Shown here piece after piece: positions 1 through 17,256 of a stretch of DNA of 64,000 nt (its first letter is position 1; every line of letters starts with the position of its first letter). Under the pieces are notes generated by a model. That model worked only from the letters and a program-made list of their open reading frames with translations, was not told the DNA's origin and did no database searches. The translations under genes were made by a program, and so were the position numbers. The stretch is from an uncultured Blastocatellia bacterium (lineage in GTDB: Bacteria; Acidobacteriota; Blastocatellia; Chloracidobacteriales; Chloracidobacteriaceae), in assembly GCA_937934745.1 (NCBI GenBank), contig CALGZC010000008.1:1-64000 (forward strand). Reading direction: 5' to 3'.

Positions 1-936
1 CGGGATTTTGCAATTGAAGCGGCTGTAGTAATGGTCGTCGTGACTGCGGTCAATGCGCAGCGCCTCGTAAAACAGCGGTTCGAGAATATCGTTGAAGAAA
101 TTCTGATACTCGCCGTGCCGCTTCTCGAACAGTTCGCGCAAAAAGCGCTTCGAGCCGGCGCCCCACGCCGCGTCACGCGGAACGCCGAACCAGCCCTTCT
201 TTTGCAAATAATAGAGAAAGACAATTTGCCCCAGCAGTTTCTTGGCTAGATTGACGGTATCCACGCCCTTCGCTTCAAAATCGGACCGCGCGGCGGGGTT
301 CGCCGCGACGGCTTGGTCCAACGCCTCTTTCGTCCGCACGAACAAGTCGCGGTACTTCTCGAAGAACTCCTTCGTCACCCGCTCGATGTTGAACGCCTCT
401 TCCAACTGCGCCAGCGTGGGCGGGGTTTCATCGTTTTCCAGCAGGGGGACGAAGCGGCTCTGGGCGGTGTGACTGCGCTCGTTGACCCCCACCAAAAACG
501 ACCAGCGGCGGGCGGGGGTGAACTCCTCCCGCACCTTTGCGCCCTCCTCGATGCGGTATTCCATCTTGACCAGCGAGAAGCGCCAATCCTCCGCGTTGGG
601 CGAGACAAAAGCCGCCAGCGCGGCGTCTTTCATATCGCGCTGCAAATACCAGGCGACGAAGTTGCGCTGCATGGCGCGGGCGCGCTCGATGGATGTCTCG
701 CGCTTGAGATAGACGATGAACAGCATGACCTCGTTCTTGCCGGTCACATACTTGCCGACGCGCTCTATCTTCTCGACGTAATCCTGAAATTTTTCGGGGA
801 TGCGCGCCCCCTGGTTGACGCGCGCGCTTTCGTTGAATTTGTTCAGCAGTTGGCGCAGGAAGCGGATGTAATGTTCACGGTTGAACACCGATTCAAAGGT
901 CTGCTTGACAAGTTCGATGGCTTGTTGGCGGTTCAT
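1..936 (-). CDS. Partial: N-terminus of probable Eco57I-like N6-adenine methyltransferase / type IIG restriction protein
   Basis: The frame is open on the minus strand from an ATG at 936 to the window edge, giving 312 codons with no stop. An AAGGA ribosome site lies 7 bases before the ATG. The visible protein begins MNRQQAIELVKQTFESVFN and is rich in charged helices. Its overall look matches the N-terminal region of large Eco57I-type restriction-modification methylases, which methylate adenine and are often fused to a nuclease. The catalytic NPPY motif would lie beyond the edge, so the activity cannot be confirmed here. It lies 186 bp downstream of the PLD-helicase gene on the same strand, and the two probably form one operon. 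Family assignment rests on general resemblance and context, so it is moderate. Confidence 0.6.
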   Translation of the reverse strand, partial: MNRQQAIELVKQTFESVFNREHYIRFLRQLLNKFNESARVNQGARIPEKFQDYVEKIERVGKYVTGKNEVMLFIVYLKRETSIERARAMQRNFVAWYLQRDMKDAALAAFVSPNAEDWRFSLVKMEYRIEEGAKVREEFTPARRWSFLVGVNERSHTAQSRFVPLLENDETPPTLAQLEEAFNIERVTKEFFEKYRDLFVRTKEALDQAVAANPAARSDFEAKGVDTVNLAKKLLGQIVFLYYLQKKGWFGVPRDAAWGAGSKRFLRELFEKRHGEYQNFFNDILEPLFYEALRIDRSHDDHYYSRFNCKIP

Positions 937-1122
937 GTAGTCGTCCTTGTCTCTCTATGTACAATCGGTGCAAAAACGATAGGTTACAGCGACAAGCGAA
1001 AGCCCTTGCGGAGCTGTGCCCTGTTATGTCGTACTGTCGCTCATTGCCTCATTCGTTTGGAAGGATTTCCCACCTCATGTAAGGGCTGGCGATCAGGCGT
1101 AGATGAATACGCAGGTGGATAT

Positions 1123-4100
1123 TCACCGGTTGATCAAGCCCATAGACAAAATCACTTCATGTTTACCAATCGAGATCGGGTTTTGCTCGGCGAAGTGACC
1201 TTCCAGCAGGTGCGCGGGAATGGCGGTTTGCAGCGCCGCCAATGCCTTGAGCGGGTTTGCCGCCTGATTGCCCAGCGCTTTGAGCGCCTTCAGCGCCCGC
1301 GCCGTCGTTTCTTTGGGCAAACCGCCTTCTTCTAACCGTCCCATGACCTTCTGGACGTACGCTTCCTGCTCATCGGTGAGTTGCTGCGTGGTGCGGAAGA
1401 CCGCCTTGAGCAGTTTGAGAACCTGATAGGCGCTGTCTCTGCCGCGCGGCGCGAGACCCTCGTCCTCGTCTGCGGTGGTGGCATTCAGGAAGGCTTGTTT
1501 GTTCTTCTCCAGCAGGTCAAAGAAGCCTTTCGGGAGTTTTTGACGCGGCGCATCGGGCGCGCATTCCAGCAGTTGCGCGGCGGTCAGGAAATCCAACTCC
1601 ACGCTTTCGGCATCGGGTGCAGCCAGGAAAAATTTCTGCACCTTCCCCTGCCGCAAGTAAGTCACCAGCACCCCCTCTCCCGCTGGGAACGGGACCGGGG
1701 TGAGGGCCTCCCTCTCCCCCTGGGAGAAGGCCAGGGTGAGGGCCGAGCGCGCCTTTTTGGGCAGCCGCTTGATCTGCTCGAACAGATCGGGCTGCTGGTC
1801 GCGCACCGCCTTGATGACGTTGAGATACTTCAACTCGCTGTTTTCGGCTTCGTTTTCGCCCGTCAGCGTCTGGCGCGAAATCAAACGGTCAAACAACTCG
1901 TGCGAGTCAACCGGCTCGCCTTCGGTCAGCAGCGCCGCATCGCCGCCGAGGAGCGTCAGGAAGGCATTGATCTTGGCTTCGGCGGCTTCCTTCAGCTTGA
2001 TTTCCTCATTGGCCTTTTCGGTTGGGAAGAAGTTAAAGGTGTAAATCTTGTCAAACGTCGTATCTACGCGATTGATGCGCCCCACGCGCTGCATCATGCG
2101 GGTTGGGTTCCAGGGAATATCGTAGTTGATGACCACGTTGGAGCGGTGCAGGTTCACGCCTTCAGAGAGAACATCGGTCGTGACCAGCAGGCGGTACTCA
2201 TCTTTGGGATGGCGCGCTTTGGCGTCGAAGTTTTCAATCACCGCCCGGCGCGCCGCCTCGTCCGAACTGCCCGTGAAACACAACGCCGCGTTGGGGAACA
2301 TCTGATTGACGTGGTTGGTCAAATACTCCGCCGTTTCTTTCGATTCGGTGAACAGAATCAGTTTTCTCTGCCGCAGCAGCGGGTTGGACTGGAGTTGTTC
2401 GAGCAGGGCGAGCAGTTTCGGGTCGCGCTCAACCGTCTGCCACAGGGTTTGTATCTGCCGCAGAATCTCCAGGTCGCTGCACAAATCCTGGAAAAAAGCC
2501 TCGGTGAACTCGGCGGCATCGTGCCGCTCGGCTTTGCCCTCGTCAATCAGCCGCTGTAGGGCGGCGTCGTCATCGCTTTCGAGCGCCTCGAAGAGTCTGT
2601 GGGCGCGCCGTTTACTGACGTACACGTTGCCTTTCTCGTACTCGGCAAGGAACATCTCGTAAGAGCAGATGAAGCGCTCAATGGATTTTCGGAAGGCAAA
2701 GAAACTGCTCTCCAGCCGTTTGACCAGCAGGATTTTCATGAACCTGCCCATGTTGCGCTGCGATTGCGCTTCCAACTGGTCGAGACCCTGCCTGAGATAC
2801 AGGAGCGGTGTGTACCGGGCGTAGGTGAATTTTTGCGAGATGAGTTGGATGGTCTCGGTGAAAACGGCGTCTTCCTGTTCGCTCAGTTCGTAATACAACG
2901 GCGTTGGGTTGGCGACTTCGGGAAACTTCAACCCCTGCGTCTGCAAATCCTGCGCGAAATAACGGGTAATCTCGCTGCGGGTGCGCCGCACCATCAGGTA
3001 TTTCAGGACCTTTTCGCGTATTTCGCGCGCATTTTCGCGGGCTACTCGCAAGTATTCGGCATGGTCTCTTTGTCGGTCTAAATTTTTGAACCGTTTTTGT
3101 AGCTTATCAAAGAAGACTTCGAGGTTGGGCAAATTCGGAATGACGCTTTTGCGCCCGTTTTGGAATAACTTCAGTTGGCTCAGAATGTCCTGGGGCGAAT
3201 TATTGTACGGCGTGGCCGTGACCAGAATCACGCGCTTGCCGCGACAAATCTGGGCCAGTTTTTCGTAGGTCACGTTGGTCTCGACGCGGAAGCGGTGCGC
3301 CTCGTCAATGATGACATTGGCGTACTTCTCCGTTCTCTGCGCGAGGGCTTCATCCAATTTGCCGATGGAGACAAAATCGGCGGCGCGCGCGCCAAAATCC
3401 ACAAAGGCGTTGCGCCACGAGCCGGGATTCCCGGCGTCCAGCAGCGCCGGAGGCGCGATGACCAGCGTCCGTCCGTCTAGCTGCCCCGCCAGCATCGTCG
3501 CAATATAGGTTTTGCCCAGCCCGACCACATCGGAAATAAAAACGCCGCCGTATTCTTCTAGAATCTTTTTCGCATTCAAGACGGCTTGGCGCTGATACTC
3601 CAGTTGCAGAAAGCCTTCGGGCAGATAGTTGGCAAAGACATCATCGGCGCGGTTCAACTCGTCCTTGAAATATTCATACAACAGCTTCAGATATAGGTGA
3701 TACGGCGGGATAGACGGATTGAGCCATGTGCGGGTTGTGATCGCTTGCACAAATTTCTCGTTCAGTTCAACCGACTCTGCCCAGAGCTGCTCGAATTTCG
3801 CCTTGGCAAAGCGATAGTCGGCGCTATTTTTGAGTTCCACGTTGAATTCGAGGTTATCCGCCAGTCCCGATTGGGTTAGGTTGCTCGATCCGGTGATGAC
3901 CCGCCCCTGATCGCGGTCGCCCGCCTTGAACGTGACGATATAGACTTTGGCGTGGATGTTCCGCGCCGGATAGGCGCGAATGGCGAGCTTGCCGCTCCGA
4001 ATCCATTCGACAAATTTCATGACGCCCTGTTCCACGTCGCGGCTGTCGGGCGCCAGTTCGAGTTCCCGGACAATCTGTTCCTCGATGACCTGCTTGGCTT

Positions 4101-4362
4101 CGGCGTGAGAAAGCGGCAGTTCCATCTGCCGCTCCGCTCTAGCTTCGGCGAAGCGCTCGTAGGTTTTCGCATCCGCGCCAATCCCGACCAGAATCCGAAT
4201 TTTCTCGGTCTGTTCCAGCGCCGGGTAAATGGCGGAAAACCCGCTGGCAAAAAAGTAACCGACCAGCGCGTCAAAAAAACGCGCGTCTTTGATGAGCGCG
4301 TCAAATCGCTCCTTGAGCGTGCGTCCGGCCTCGTTGGTGATAAACGTTAGGTCCGTATCCAT
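1123..4362 (-). CDS. PLD-nuclease/SNF2-type helicase fusion, probable anti-phage or restriction protein
   Basis: About 1079 residues. The N-terminal third is a phospholipase-D-like nuclease domain with the HAKVYIV...GSSNLTQSG signature near residues 138-170. It is followed by a superfamily 2 helicase core: Walker A in DVVGLGKTYIA, Walker B DEAH in NVIIDEAHRFR, and the C-terminal VTTDVLSEGVNLH and QRVGRINRV motifs. PLD-helicase proteins next to N6-adenine methylases occur in DNA-modification defence systems; class 1 DISARM, for example, pairs the SNF2 helicase DrmD with a methylase. The partial methylase gene lies immediately downstream. The ATG at 4362 was chosen because the conserved region starts right after it; ATG 4404 and TTG 4413 are in-frame alternatives, and none has a good ribosome site. 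The gene contains an in-frame repeat insertion at 1673-1742. Function is well supported as a helicase/nuclease; the role in defence is inferred. Confidence 0.85.
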   Translation of the reverse strand: MDTDLTFITNEAGRTLKERFDALIKDARFFDALVGYFFASGFSAIYPALEQTEKIRILVGIGADAKTYERFAEARAERQMELPLSHAEAKQVIEEQIVRELELAPDSRDVEQGVMKFVEWIRSGKLAIRAYPARNIHAKVYIVTFKAGDRDQGRVITGSSNLTQSGLADNLEFNVELKNSADYRFAKAKFEQLWAESVELNEKFVQAITTRTWLNPSIPPYHLYLKLLYEYFKDELNRADDVFANYLPEGFLQLEYQRQAVLNAKKILEEYGGVFISDVVGLGKTYIATMLAGQLDGRTLVIAPPALLDAGNPGSWRNAFVDFGARAADFVSIGKLDEALAQRTEKYANVIIDEAHRFRVETNVTYEKLAQICRGKRVILVTATPYNNSPQDILSQLKLFQNGRKSVIPNLPNLEVFFDKLQKRFKNLDRQRDHAEYLRVARENAREIREKVLKYLMVRRTRSEITRYFAQDLQTQGLKFPEVANPTPLYYELSEQEDAVFTETIQLISQKFTYARYTPLLYLRQGLDQLEAQSQRNMGRFMKILLVKRLESSFFAFRKSIERFICSYEMFLAEYEKGNVYVSKRRAHRLFEALESDDDAALQRLIDEGKAERHDAAEFTEAFFQDLCSDLEILRQIQTLWQTVERDPKLLALLEQLQSNPLLRQRKLILFTESKETAEYLTNHVNQMFPNAALCFTGSSDEAARRAVIENFDAKARHPKDEYRLLVTTDVLSEGVNLHRSNVVINYDIPWNPTRMMQRVGRINRVDTTFDKIYTFNFFPTEKANEEIKLKEAAEAKINAFLTLLGGDAALLTEGEPVDSHELFDRLISRQTLTGENEAENSELKYLNVIKAVRDQQPDLFEQIKRLPKKARSALTLAFSQGEREALTPVPFPAGEGVLVTYLRQGKVQKFFLAAPDAESVELDFLTAAQLLECAPDAPRQKLPKGFFDLLEKNKQAFLNATTADEDEGLAPRGRDSAYQVLKLLKAVFRTTQQLTDEQEAYVQKVMGRLEEGGLPKETTARALKALKALGNQAANPLKALAALQTAIPAHLLEGHFAEQNPISIGKHEVILSMGLINR
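1673..1742. repeat. Two tandem copies of a palindromic REP-like element inside the helicase gene
   Basis: Two copies, starting at 1673 and 1710 (period 37), each run from CCCTCTCCC through a TGGGA core to GGGTGAGGG. The type is familiar from extragenic repeats in many bacterial genomes. Here they lie inside the helicase reading frame without breaking it. They add the low-complexity peptide FSQGEREALTPVPFPAGEG between the helicase core and the C-terminal region. This is seen directly; the mobile-repeat origin is inferred from similarity to that common repeat class. Confidence 0.7.
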
Positions 4363-4791
4363 GGCTTGTTCGTAGAGATTCTTGCAAGAGGATTTGAGAA
4401 GCATAACAAGCAATCAAAACAAGGCACAAAAGTGATGCGCCGACCACAAGCACCTTCCACGAGCAGCTCGGAATGAACCGGGTGACGCACGTGCCGTAGC
4501 GGCAAACGGCGGATGTGATGCACAGGCAGGCGCACCGGCAAGGATGGTCGGCAGGGGAGGCCACAATGCATCCGGGCCAAGAGCAGCAAACGTTTGGCCG
4601 CGATGTCGGCACGTCCCGGCGGTGAGGAGAAGGGAGCTGAACGGAGTGTATGACAAATTACAAAATGGAGCTTGGCGTTGAAACCCGTTGCAGTGTAGGT
4701 TGGAAAGGAAAGTATGCGACGGTCAACTGTTTTACCTGTCCCTGTCCTACGTCGCGCTTGACCTCAACATTTTAGGCAAGTGGGAGAAACC
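4363..4791. other. 429-bp non-coding stretch between helicase and the next gene
   Basis: This separates the divergent helicase (minus) and membrane-protein (plus) genes, so it should hold both promoters. Short frames here are not convincing. I saw no RNA gene, no clear -35/-10 pair and no long inverted repeat. It also marks the switch from the defence cassette to housekeeping-type genes. Confidence 0.5.
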
Positions 4792-5967
4792 ATGACCGAG
4801 GGAATGCAGTTGCTGTTCTTTTCGGCGCTCGGTTTGGCTGGGCAAATTGTTGCCGTTGGCGGCGCGCTGCTGGCTTTTCGGCTCGGTACACGGGTGGACC
4901 GCCCCCAGCGGTCGGTGAATCCGGGGTCGCTGCGTAGTGAACATACCTTGTCGGATACCACGTCGGTGTCGCCGGTTGTTGCAAGCGCTCCGGTCGTCGG
5001 GCTGCCGGACGCTCGTTCGGTTTCGTTACTGCGGCAGTTGCGGCTGCCCCAGGTCACAGACCACACTGCCCTGTCGGCCTGGTACGACCGACTTCAAATG
5101 GACGGAATGGCGTTGGTGTCCACGTTGCCGGCTGATATTCAGTCAAACTTTCGGCAGGCGCTGAAGGCGATTCGGGACATTCTGGAAACGCCCAATCTGG
5201 ATGACCGTTACGAACTGCTCGCCGCGGCATTGCTGCCTGTGTATGAAGCTTTGTATGCCGGGCCGGAGGGCAGTCAGGAAGACAGCCGGGGACAGCCGGC
5301 GGCGCACGCCACAGCCTGCGGTAGCACAGTGGGGACGGCCCAGGCGTCCGGGGCGGGGAGTGCTACCGTGGTGTCCACTACAACAACGTACCGTGAGACG
5401 GCGACCCCGGTCGTTGAGAAGAACCGGCTAGCCGCTTTGTTTGAGCAGGTGGAATCGGCTGCGCGGACGTGTGGTTTGTCGGGAAGCCATTCGGCAGGAA
5501 CGCTACCCGGCGATGCGGGGGCGGGTGTGGTGGCGTCTCTGAGGTCTGACAAGTCTGACTCTGACAAGGATGCCGTAGCGGCGACTGCCCAGGGCCACCA
5601 CCCCGCAAACCTAGACACTTCACGGCTTTCCCGCCGGCTGGCAGAGATTCTCAAGACGGCAGACCGAAACGATCAGCCCGAAGCTACCTCAGGGGAACCC
5701 CTGCGGTTGACGGGCAACGGCACACAGGACTTGCATTTAGTGACACCACCGCTCAAATCACGGCTCAAGCGCAGCGGCCAGCTCACACCCGAACAGGAAG
5801 TGGCGCGCAAAGCGGCGCACGTCGTCGGACGGGCGCGGGAATGGTATGGGCGGCCGGACATCACACTCCGTGAGGTACAGTCAGCCTGTGCTGCCTTCGG
5901 CCTGGAATTTAACGAAGTTGCTGCACGGGCTGAACTAGCGAAACCCCTTGCCGAAGAAGCTTCCTGA
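4792..5967 (+). CDS. Membrane-anchored protein of unknown function
   Basis: 391 residues, not recognised as a known family. The start is ATG 4792, preceded by GGGAG 5 bases upstream; an in-frame GTG at 4780 is less likely. Residues about 5-30 (MQLLFFSALGLAGQIVAVGG) form one hydrophobic segment, probably a signal anchor. A long, low-complexity Ser/Thr/Ala/Gly-rich region follows, and then a more ordered, charged C-terminus (about residues 320-391) with EVARKAAHVVGRAREWYGRP. It overlaps the start of the DegT aminotransferase gene by about 20 bp, which suggests co-transcription and possibly translational coupling. No catalytic motif is visible. Confidence 0.75.
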   Translation: MTEGMQLLFFSALGLAGQIVAVGGALLAFRLGTRVDRPQRSVNPGSLRSEHTLSDTTSVSPVVASAPVVGLPDARSVSLLRQLRLPQVTDHTALSAWYDRLQMDGMALVSTLPADIQSNFRQALKAIRDILETPNLDDRYELLAAALLPVYEALYAGPEGSQEDSRGQPAAHATACGSTVGTAQASGAGSATVVSTTTTYRETATPVVEKNRLAALFEQVESAARTCGLSGSHSAGTLPGDAGAGVVASLRSDKSDSDKDAVAATAQGHHPANLDTSRLSRRLAEILKTADRNDQPEATSGEPLRLTGNGTQDLHLVTPPLKSRLKRSGQLTPEQEVARKAAHVVGRAREWYGRPDITLREVQSACAAFGLEFNEVAARAELAKPLAEEAS

Positions 5968-7138
5968 CGCCGCGGCGGACGGCTTTATCCCCATACTCAA
6001 CCTTGAGCCGCAGTACCGGGCATTACGTCCGGCGTTGCAGGCGGCGCTGGAGCGCGTCTGCGCGTCGCAGCAATTCATTCTGGGCGAAGAAGTCGCGGCA
6101 TTTGAGGAAGAAGTTGCCCGGTATTTGGGTGTCAGCCAGGCAATCGGCGTCAATTCCGGCACCGATGCTCTGGTCATTGCGCTCCGGGCGCTTGACATCG
6201 GGCCGGGCGATGAGGTCATCACCACACCGTTTTCATTCTTTGCGACCGCCGAAGCCATTAGCCTAGTCGGCGCGACACTGGTTTTCGCCGACATTGAAGC
6301 CGAAAGCTTCAACCTTGATCCGCACGCCGTGGCAGCCTGCATAACGTCCCGGACACGAGCGCTGCTGCCGGTTCACCTCTTCGGCCGCCCGGCAGCGGTG
6401 GGGGCCCTGCTTGAAGTCGCCGCACGTCACGGTCTAGCCGTGATTGAAGACGCGGCGCAGGCCTTCGGAGCACAGTACCTACCGCCTTGCGTCGGCTGCG
6501 ACGGTCGGGGTTGTGCGCCTGCAACGCAGACTCAGCTTCGGGGGCGGTTTGTCGGAACGCTGGGAACAATCGGCGCTTTTTCTTTTTATCCATCGAAAAA
6601 TCTCGGCGCCTATGGGGATGGCGGTCTGATTGTCACCAATGACAACCGAATTGCCGAACGCTGTCGGAAGCTGCGTTCCCACGGAGCACGTGCCCCATAC
6701 TGGCACGACATGCTGGGCTATAACTCGCGGCTCGACGCGCTACAGGCAGCCATCTTGCGTGTCAAACTCCCCTATGTTGCCGAGTGGAATGCCGCCCGGC
6801 GGCGCATTGCCGCCACCTACCATCAAGGGCTTGCCGGGTTGCCAGGGGTTGTCACGCCGGCCGTGACTCCGGGCCATGTCTTTCACCAGTACACGCTGCG
6901 CATCCAGGCAGGACGGCGTGATGCCGTGCGCCAGTCGCTGCTCGAGCAGGGCATTGGAACGATGGTGTACTACCCAACGCCGCTCCACCAGTTGCCGGTC
7001 TATGCCGGGCAGTTTCCACCGCAACCCGTCAGTGAGGCGGCAGCCGGCGAAGTTCTGAGCTTGCCAATCTGGCCGGAAATGGAAGAAGCCGTACAGGGGC
7101 GAGTCATCAATGCAGTGCGACAGGCCCTCGCAGGGTAA
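5948..7138 (+). CDS. DegT/DnrJ/EryC1-type PLP-dependent sugar aminotransferase
   Basis: 396 residues. The family transfers an amino group to nucleotide-linked keto sugars used in O-antigen, S-layer glycans or glycoproteins. Fold-type I PLP features are present: GVNSGTDALVIALRALDIGPGDEV, a DAAQAFGA segment and the cofactor lysine K217 in FYPSKNLGAYGDGG. The start is TTG 5948, overlapping the upstream gene; no better start occurs before the conserved IPILNLEPQYRAL. Between AQAFGAQY and RFVGTLG there is an unusual insert with three cysteines (C181, C184, C189 in CVGCDGRGC). No other sugar-nucleotide genes are adjacent, so the exact sugar is unknown. Confidence 0.92.
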   Translation: MPKKLPDAAADGFIPILNLEPQYRALRPALQAALERVCASQQFILGEEVAAFEEEVARYLGVSQAIGVNSGTDALVIALRALDIGPGDEVITTPFSFFATAEAISLVGATLVFADIEAESFNLDPHAVAACITSRTRALLPVHLFGRPAAVGALLEVAARHGLAVIEDAAQAFGAQYLPPCVGCDGRGCAPATQTQLRGRFVGTLGTIGAFSFYPSKNLGAYGDGGLIVTNDNRIAERCRKLRSHGARAPYWHDMLGYNSRLDALQAAILRVKLPYVAEWNAARRRIAATYHQGLAGLPGVVTPAVTPGHVFHQYTLRIQAGRRDAVRQSLLEQGIGTMVYYPTPLHQLPVYAGQFPPQPVSEAAAGEVLSLPIWPEMEEAVQGRVINAVRQALAG

Positions 7139-7166: not shown

Positions 7167-7289
7167 TCGGAACCTCGCTTTGAGCGGATCGCTGTGATCG
7201 AACCGATGTTGTAGGGCTTGTCACGCCGGTGAAGTTATGAAACAAACACACGCACAATGCCCACAGTTGCCTAACAGGATGTACCCGAC

Positions 7290-8012
7290 ATGCGAAGCGA
7301 TGGGCGAGTCGCCAACGCACTGCGGCCGGTGCGGTTGACGCCCAACATCAACAAGTATGCCGAAGGTTCGGTACAGGTCGAATTCGGAGACACGCGGGTG
7401 ATCTGTACGGCGAGCGTCGAAGACAAGGTGCCGCCCTTTCTCAAGGGGAAGGGAACAGGCTGGGTGACGGCGGAATACGCCATGCTACCGCGGGCGACCG
7501 ATCAGCGTACCCAGCGTGAAGTCATCCGCGGGACGGCCTCCGGCCGCACCCAGGAAATCCAGCGCCTGATCGGACGCAGCCTGCGCGCCGTGGTGGACTT
7601 TGCCAAGCTTGGCGAGCGCACCATTTATCTGGACTGTGATGTCATTCAGGCGGATGGTGGCACACGCACCGCCGCCATCACCGGGGCGTTTGTGGCGCTT
7701 GTCCTCGCGGCGCGCAAGCTCCAGGCCGCCGGCATCCTCACCACCATGCCCGTGACCGATTACCTGGCGGCCGTCAGCGTCGGTGTTGTCAACGGGACGC
7801 CGATGCTCGACCTCGACTACCACGAGGATGGGAGGGCAGAGGTGGATATGAATGTTGTCGGTACGGGGGACGGCCGGCTGGTCGAAGTGCAGGGCACGGC
7901 CGAACAGCGTCCCTTTACACGTGAGCAAATGAATCAACTCCTCGACCTGGCTACCCAGGGAATTCGGGAACTCATCTCGCGCCAGCGCCAACTGCTCGGC
8001 CTGCTCGAATGA
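7290..8012 (+). CDS. rph: Ribonuclease PH
   Basis: 240 residues, the normal length. RNase PH is a phosphate-dependent 3'-to-5' exoribonuclease that trims tRNA precursors and other stable RNA ends; it forms a hexameric ring in the cytoplasm. The sequence is typical from [16 protein letters not shown] through [36 protein letters not shown] and [19 protein letters not shown]. The start ATG 7290 fits the conserved N-terminus. Spacers of about 150 bp on both sides suggest it is transcribed on its own. The genomic context adds no further clue. Confidence 0.97.

Positions 8013-12318: not shown

Positions 12319-17256
<4,938 letters not shown>

Follow-up and report, generated by a model that had tools for sequence, protein, structure and literature searches.

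The question raised by this locus is which kind of system is built from a PLD-type nuclease fused to an SNF2-class helicase and a methylase gene that begins 186 bp further on. The original prediction had left two readings, a compact variant of DISARM or a separate two-gene system. The window, by which we mean the whole stretch of DNA analysed (64,000 nucleotides; G000:C8:1-64000), covers the first 64 kb of contig C8, which is 96 kb long and belongs to a genome of 3.29 Mb. Its position 1 is the end of the contig, and half of the two-gene cassette sits at this edge, with both genes on the minus strand. We propose, with a probability of about three in four, that the two genes of the cassette form an ATP-dependent restriction-modification system, much like a Type ISP enzyme that has been split in two and has a PLD nuclease. 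The features on which the analysis is based are the following.

1..936, minus strand: N-terminus of an N6-adenine methylase, 312 aa; the gene runs off the contig
367..936, minus strand: conserved methylase N-terminal domain of ~190 aa, with no Pfam or PDB sequence relative
937..1122, minus strand: intergenic gap of 186 bp with no ORF; accessory genes often lie here in homologous loci
1123..4362, minus strand: PLD-SNF2 fusion, 1079 aa, predicted restriction/translocation subunit (domain matches; conserved start MDTDLTFITNE at 4362)
1126..1962, minus strand: C-terminal region, aa 801-1079, RapA-like in overall arrangement (RapA aligned to the C-terminus, with high rmsd)
1651..1734, minus strand: GC-rich in-frame insertion within the helicase gene, found in none of 77 aligned homologues and present once in the window
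1963..3666, minus strand: SNF2/SF2 motor core, aa 233-800 (Walker A GLGKT 3522-3508, DEAH 3306-3295, TATP, QRVGR)
3718..4362, minus strand: N-terminal PLD/HKD nuclease domain, aa 1-215 (PLDc_2 3.1e-9; RE_NgoFVII 2.7e-5)
3880..3954, minus strand: single HKD active-site motif H137-A-K139 ... G158-S-S-N161, invariant in 42 aligned sequences
4363..4647, no strand: non-coding end of the cassette on its upstream side; from 4648 on there is homology with the empty site of a sister species

The PLD-SNF2 fusion protein

The helicase ORF spans 4413..1123 (minus), with the conserved start ATG at 4362. PLD nuclease and SNF2 helicase do occur in one polypeptide, as had been claimed: a single chain matches PLDc_2 (3.1e-9), SNF2-rel_dom (1.6e-10) and Helicase_C (9.2e-20), and the motifs H137-x-K139, G158SSN, GLGKT281-285, DEAH353, TATP382 and QRxxR758-762 are intact and invariant or nearly so among 42 aligned homologues. 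The aligned homologues likewise have PLD and motor in a single fused chain. The predicted structure (mean pLDDT 77) matched SNF2 ATPases at Z 17-18, and a Foldseek search with this model matched RapA and the PLD-helicase SauUSI. Because there is one HKD motif per chain, the catalytic centre is expected to be dimeric; we take the BfiI-type nucleases as an analogy for dimeric catalysis with a single HKD motif in each chain.

Defence-system HMMs were run on both proteins. The best model for the helicase was PADLOC C3a139 'HKD+Snf2' (2.8e-50, 170 bits), and the methylase was matched best by REase_MTase_IIG (1.8e-129, profile positions 1-321 of 1148). A compact DISARM variant would share the part classes seen here (SNF2, methylase, PLD), and the helicase does match the DrmD model (2.7e-33). 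At 113 bits, however, this falls below the 170 of the generic HKD+Snf2 model, and against the NCBIfam cut-off of 610 the DrmD match reached 132.7 bits. Nor did a search of the genome return any match to the DUF1998/MZB domain, which leaves the DrmA plus DrmB core without its counterpart, and no third gene is constant across the homologous loci. We regard a DISARM variant as very improbable, and the absence of a DrmB-type (DUF1998) gene from a genome of 99.9% completeness largely refutes it.

The methylase partner and the empty site

The methylase ORF starts at 936, exactly 186 bp 3' of the helicase gene and on the same strand, as originally described, and continues off the contig end. Elsewhere in this genome the methylase model was matched only at the very start of a second contig, C41. 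The first ORF there has an open 5' end, carries NPPY and an Eco57I domain (2.7e-24) and is followed by selB. The Eco57I-like character assigned to the methylase is thus borne out by motifs that lie outside the window. Extending the search past position 1 had been proposed in order to find NPPY, DUF1998 (DrmB) and DrmA genes; it recovered NPPY on C41, and DUF1998 was not found in the genome.

The genus contains a sister species (G006) with an empty site: its selB and the homologue of window 4648-7081 are separated by 228 bp that hold no gene. From this synteny of selB and the flanking gene it follows that C8 and C41 face each other across an assembly gap; there is no exact sequence overlap joining them, so the join rests on empty-site synteny together with gene homology. 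By homology to the loci L061 or L020 (the latter the closest homologue), the gap inside the methylase gene is estimated at ~0.9-1.1 kb and ~300-370 aa are missing. The gap interrupts the methylase gene of this genome, which is therefore only presumably intact. As reconstructed, the insert that separates selB from the gene at window 4780 holds just two genes, and the cassette was either inserted since the split from the sister species or lost in the latter. Housekeeping genes next to the cassette had been named as evidence against a defence role. The immediate neighbours (selB and the gene at 4780) are indeed housekeeping genes, yet the cassette sits cleanly between the two as an insert.

Another species of the genus (G002) has a helicase N-terminus 95% identical to that in the window, cut by a contig end (G002:C111:26813-26995; L101 end). 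The rest of this helicase and any methylase were not found in that assembly, and the ancestral recognition domain is not recoverable there. In a complete genome of the same genus (G005:C2:691223-691369; L102 about 7224-7370) a 49-residue remnant of the helicase C-terminus, with 69% identity, adjoins MNT-HEPN and VapBC-like genes; judged by its homology, it is a lost copy of the system. A further member of the genus (G001:C1:233671-240200; L013, L114) contains a second, divergent PLD-helicase (~30%) followed by an N6-methylase relative, which suggests a wider family of such pairs.

Full-length homologues of the methylase possess the Eco57I domain and, in several cases, a TaqI_C specificity domain. 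Full-length proteins were folded, and the structure comparison mostly covers residues 186-1085. The model of the L020 methylase (mean pLDDT 82.7) aligns from residue 187 on with BrxX from residue 1 (Z 25-27, ~690 residues), and also with CamA, M.BseCI, DrdV and Type ISP enzymes; against LlaGI/LlaBIII the values were Z 23.4, rmsd 7.4-7.8 and 555-573 aligned residues.

The first ~186 residues of the methylase are well conserved (64% mean column identity), and neither Pfam nor a PDB profile search returned a relative of this domain. Its nature bears on a further reading, in which the methylase would be a Type IIG enzyme sufficient by itself, its N-terminal domain being the nuclease and the PLD-SNF2 protein serving as auxiliary or as second effector. 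The PADLOC label REase_MTase_IIG agrees with this, as does the layout of the domain, which is alpha/beta with a conserved Asp on a strand, a Lys and a Gln. It has no E-x-K, however, as the residue two before the Lys is not acidic across the family, and in the window branch Met replaces the conserved Asp. The distribution of the domain also argues against independent use. Among 347 genomes of the same phylum the full-length helicase occurs in seven, all seven of which have the methylase N-domain; the domain itself occurs in nine, the eighth having a helicase split by contig ends and the ninth being a 75-residue fragment. It is therefore found together with the helicase in 8/9 genomes, and solo use was not seen in that sample. 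We judge the Type IIG reading unlikely. On the preferred reading of a two-gene system, the N-domain may have a coupling or structural role, with nuclease work left to the PLD domain; this is the least secure of our structural assignments.

Conserved pairing and exchange of recognition domains

A scan of 84,980 species identified 80 loci whose best segment is 57-76% identical to the helicase. They are spread over many phyla, among them Chloroflexota, Spirochaetota, Desulfobacterota, Bacteroidota, Nitrospirota, Omnitrophota, Planctomycetota, Atribacterota, Calditrichota, Armatimonadota, Elusimicrobiota and Patescibacteria. Together with four loci from the bacterium's own class, three of them only 25-34% identical, these make up the 84 loci compared. 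Relatives of the helicase on plasmids or phages showed 24-35% identity among the matches listed, with none closer there. A methylase partner is present in 76 of the 84 loci, always on the same strand, and the pairing is therefore not chance. In the scoring, 46 of these pairs came out as directly adjacent and 30 as separated by a gap. Of the eight partnerless loci, at least some end at contig edges.

Most loci of the gap type have extra genes between helicase and methylase. These include AlbA_2/RecG-like genes (18 loci in all), Bro-N antirepressor-like genes (9) and DUF3800, HigBA-like, MNT-HEPN, PIN and AbiEii genes, the names being mostly read off the sequences, with Bro-N confirmed. At L020 an AbiEii-like nucleotidyltransferase gene (13549-14199) occupies the position where the window has 186 bp. 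Neighbours of the homologous pairs include RhuM, YhcG, GajA/OLD-like, SIR2 and SMODS genes and integrases; genes of the RhuM and YhcG types are well known as accompanying Type I restriction operons. In the comparison of homologue neighbourhoods put forward with the original prediction, toxin-antitoxin and defence-type genes were often found within or beside the pair, as would suit the putative defence role of the cassette.

An all-against-all comparison of up to 10 kb of flank at the 84 loci revealed no third constant gene. This result bears on whether the cassette could be a reduced member of the BREX-related family (BR type 2 / Hma-like), which comprises an HKD-SNF2 helicase, an N6-methylase, a DUF499 ATPase and DUF3780. 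That family has the same HKD-SNF2 fusion and N6-methylase (PMC12839542), the helicase matches the HmaA model (1.4e-26), and its RapA-like arrangement would fit as well. Against these likenesses stand the lack of a third conserved gene and the absence of DUF499 from the genome studied here and from most of 25 homologue genomes searched. We consider a reduced BR type 2 system quite improbable.

How the two genes of the proposed restriction-modification system have evolved can be followed by comparing loci. Over most of their N-terminal and catalytic part the methylases are 57-81% identical between loci; beyond residue 800, in the recognition part, this falls to 15-24%. Helicase distance is correlated with methylase-core distance (r 0.61; 0/2000 permutations as high) and not with recognition-domain distance (r 0.01). 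As judged from these alignments, helicase and methylase core travel as a unit and the recognition domain is exchanged. Conserved pair, empty site and co-evolution together lend strong support to the separate two-gene system that had been offered as one of the two original options.

The methylase of this genome appears to record one such exchange. Its N-part has 83% DNA identity to L020. The recognition part on C41 is AT-rich (GC 0.25-0.45, as against 0.55-0.8 beyond), shows 52% protein identity to L061 from end to end and has its own stop at 1429. At C41 1420-1566, in another frame, there follows a segment with 73-77% protein and 74% DNA identity to the C-terminal 47-49 residues of the methylase of L020. 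C41 (L100) 1-1566 thus consists of an AT-rich recognition module and then the out-of-frame tail of a former allele. On the simplest reading this looks like a recent swap, in which an L061-type module replaced the original recognition domain and left the old C-terminal tail stranded.

Proposed function and comparison with known systems

A methylase with a target-recognition domain, an SF2 motor and a nuclease, linked and co-inherited, are the components by which an ATP-dependent restriction-modification system is broadly defined, and homology points to all of them here. The mechanism that we propose would run as follows. The N6-adenine methylase, using its own C-terminal target-recognition domain, would find an asymmetric DNA site and methylate the host chromosome there. 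Where incoming DNA, such as that of a phage, is unmethylated, the site-bound methylase would form a complex with the PLD-SNF2 protein by recruiting or activating it; the latter would hydrolyse ATP and move along double-stranded DNA. The PLD active site would then cut, probably where two complexes run into each other, a dimeric catalytic centre being what a single HKD motif in each chain implies. A swap of the recognition domain would change the specificity.

The pair is widespread and apparently unnamed in the searchable literature. No paper describing it was found in the literature searched, the coverage of which did not extend to many subscription papers or to REBASE, and no functional data for any member were found there either. 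Perhaps these genes constitute an unnamed, phylum-hopping class of ATP-dependent restriction-modification systems, in which a PLD-SNF2 motor-nuclease is used exclusively with a PglX-like methylase bearing a new ~190-aa coupling domain, and which evolves by wholesale replacement of recognition domains; the chances for and against this seem to us evenly balanced. If the proposal is right, the pair is a minimal, widespread split version of the motor-driven restriction enzymes, equipped with a PLD-type nuclease and with a modular specificity that comparison of genomes reveals directly. It would offer a simple two-protein model of the handover from a site-bound methylase to a DNA motor, and would be a natural source from which new specificities for asymmetric adenine methylation could be drawn. 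PADLOC lists C3a139 'HKD+Snf2' and REase_MTase_IIG, the best HMM matches of the two genes, as single proteins, which suggests that defence annotation files both genes as unrelated single-protein entries.

In addition to DUF1998/MZB, neither DUF499 (PF04465; Hma/BR) nor PglZ (PF08665; BREX) had a match in this genome, so that, within the sensitivity of these searches, the genome has no complete DISARM, Hma/BR or BREX system. The methylase resembles BREX PglX/BrxX from residue 187 on and differs in its extra 186-residue N-terminal domain. BR type 2 systems combine the HKD-SNF2 fusion and an N6-methylase with DUF499 and DUF3780 (PMC12839542); the cassette likewise has HKD at the N-terminus of the SNF2 helicase and an N6-methylase partner, and is without DUF499 or a third conserved gene.

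Cleavage by a PLD plus helicase with ATP is established for SauUSI (PMC7913695), and CglI/NgoAVII are examples of an ATP-dependent restriction enzyme made up of a PLD nuclease and an SF2 motor (PMC4267653, PMC5737866). The latter divide PLD (R) and helicase (H/N) between two proteins and have their methylase as a third gene, whereas here one chain holds both PLD and motor, and it is presumably the methylase that must supply recognition. Type ISP enzymes carry the same set of activities in one chain (PMC4666363). With LlaGI and LlaBIII the cassette shares a nuclease, an SF2 motor, an N6-methylase and one target-recognition domain. In contrast to their single nuclease-helicase-coupler-methylase-TRD polypeptide with an Mrr-family nuclease, it is divided between two genes and two proteins, with a PLD nuclease, an SNF2-type motor and an extra N-terminal domain on the methylase.
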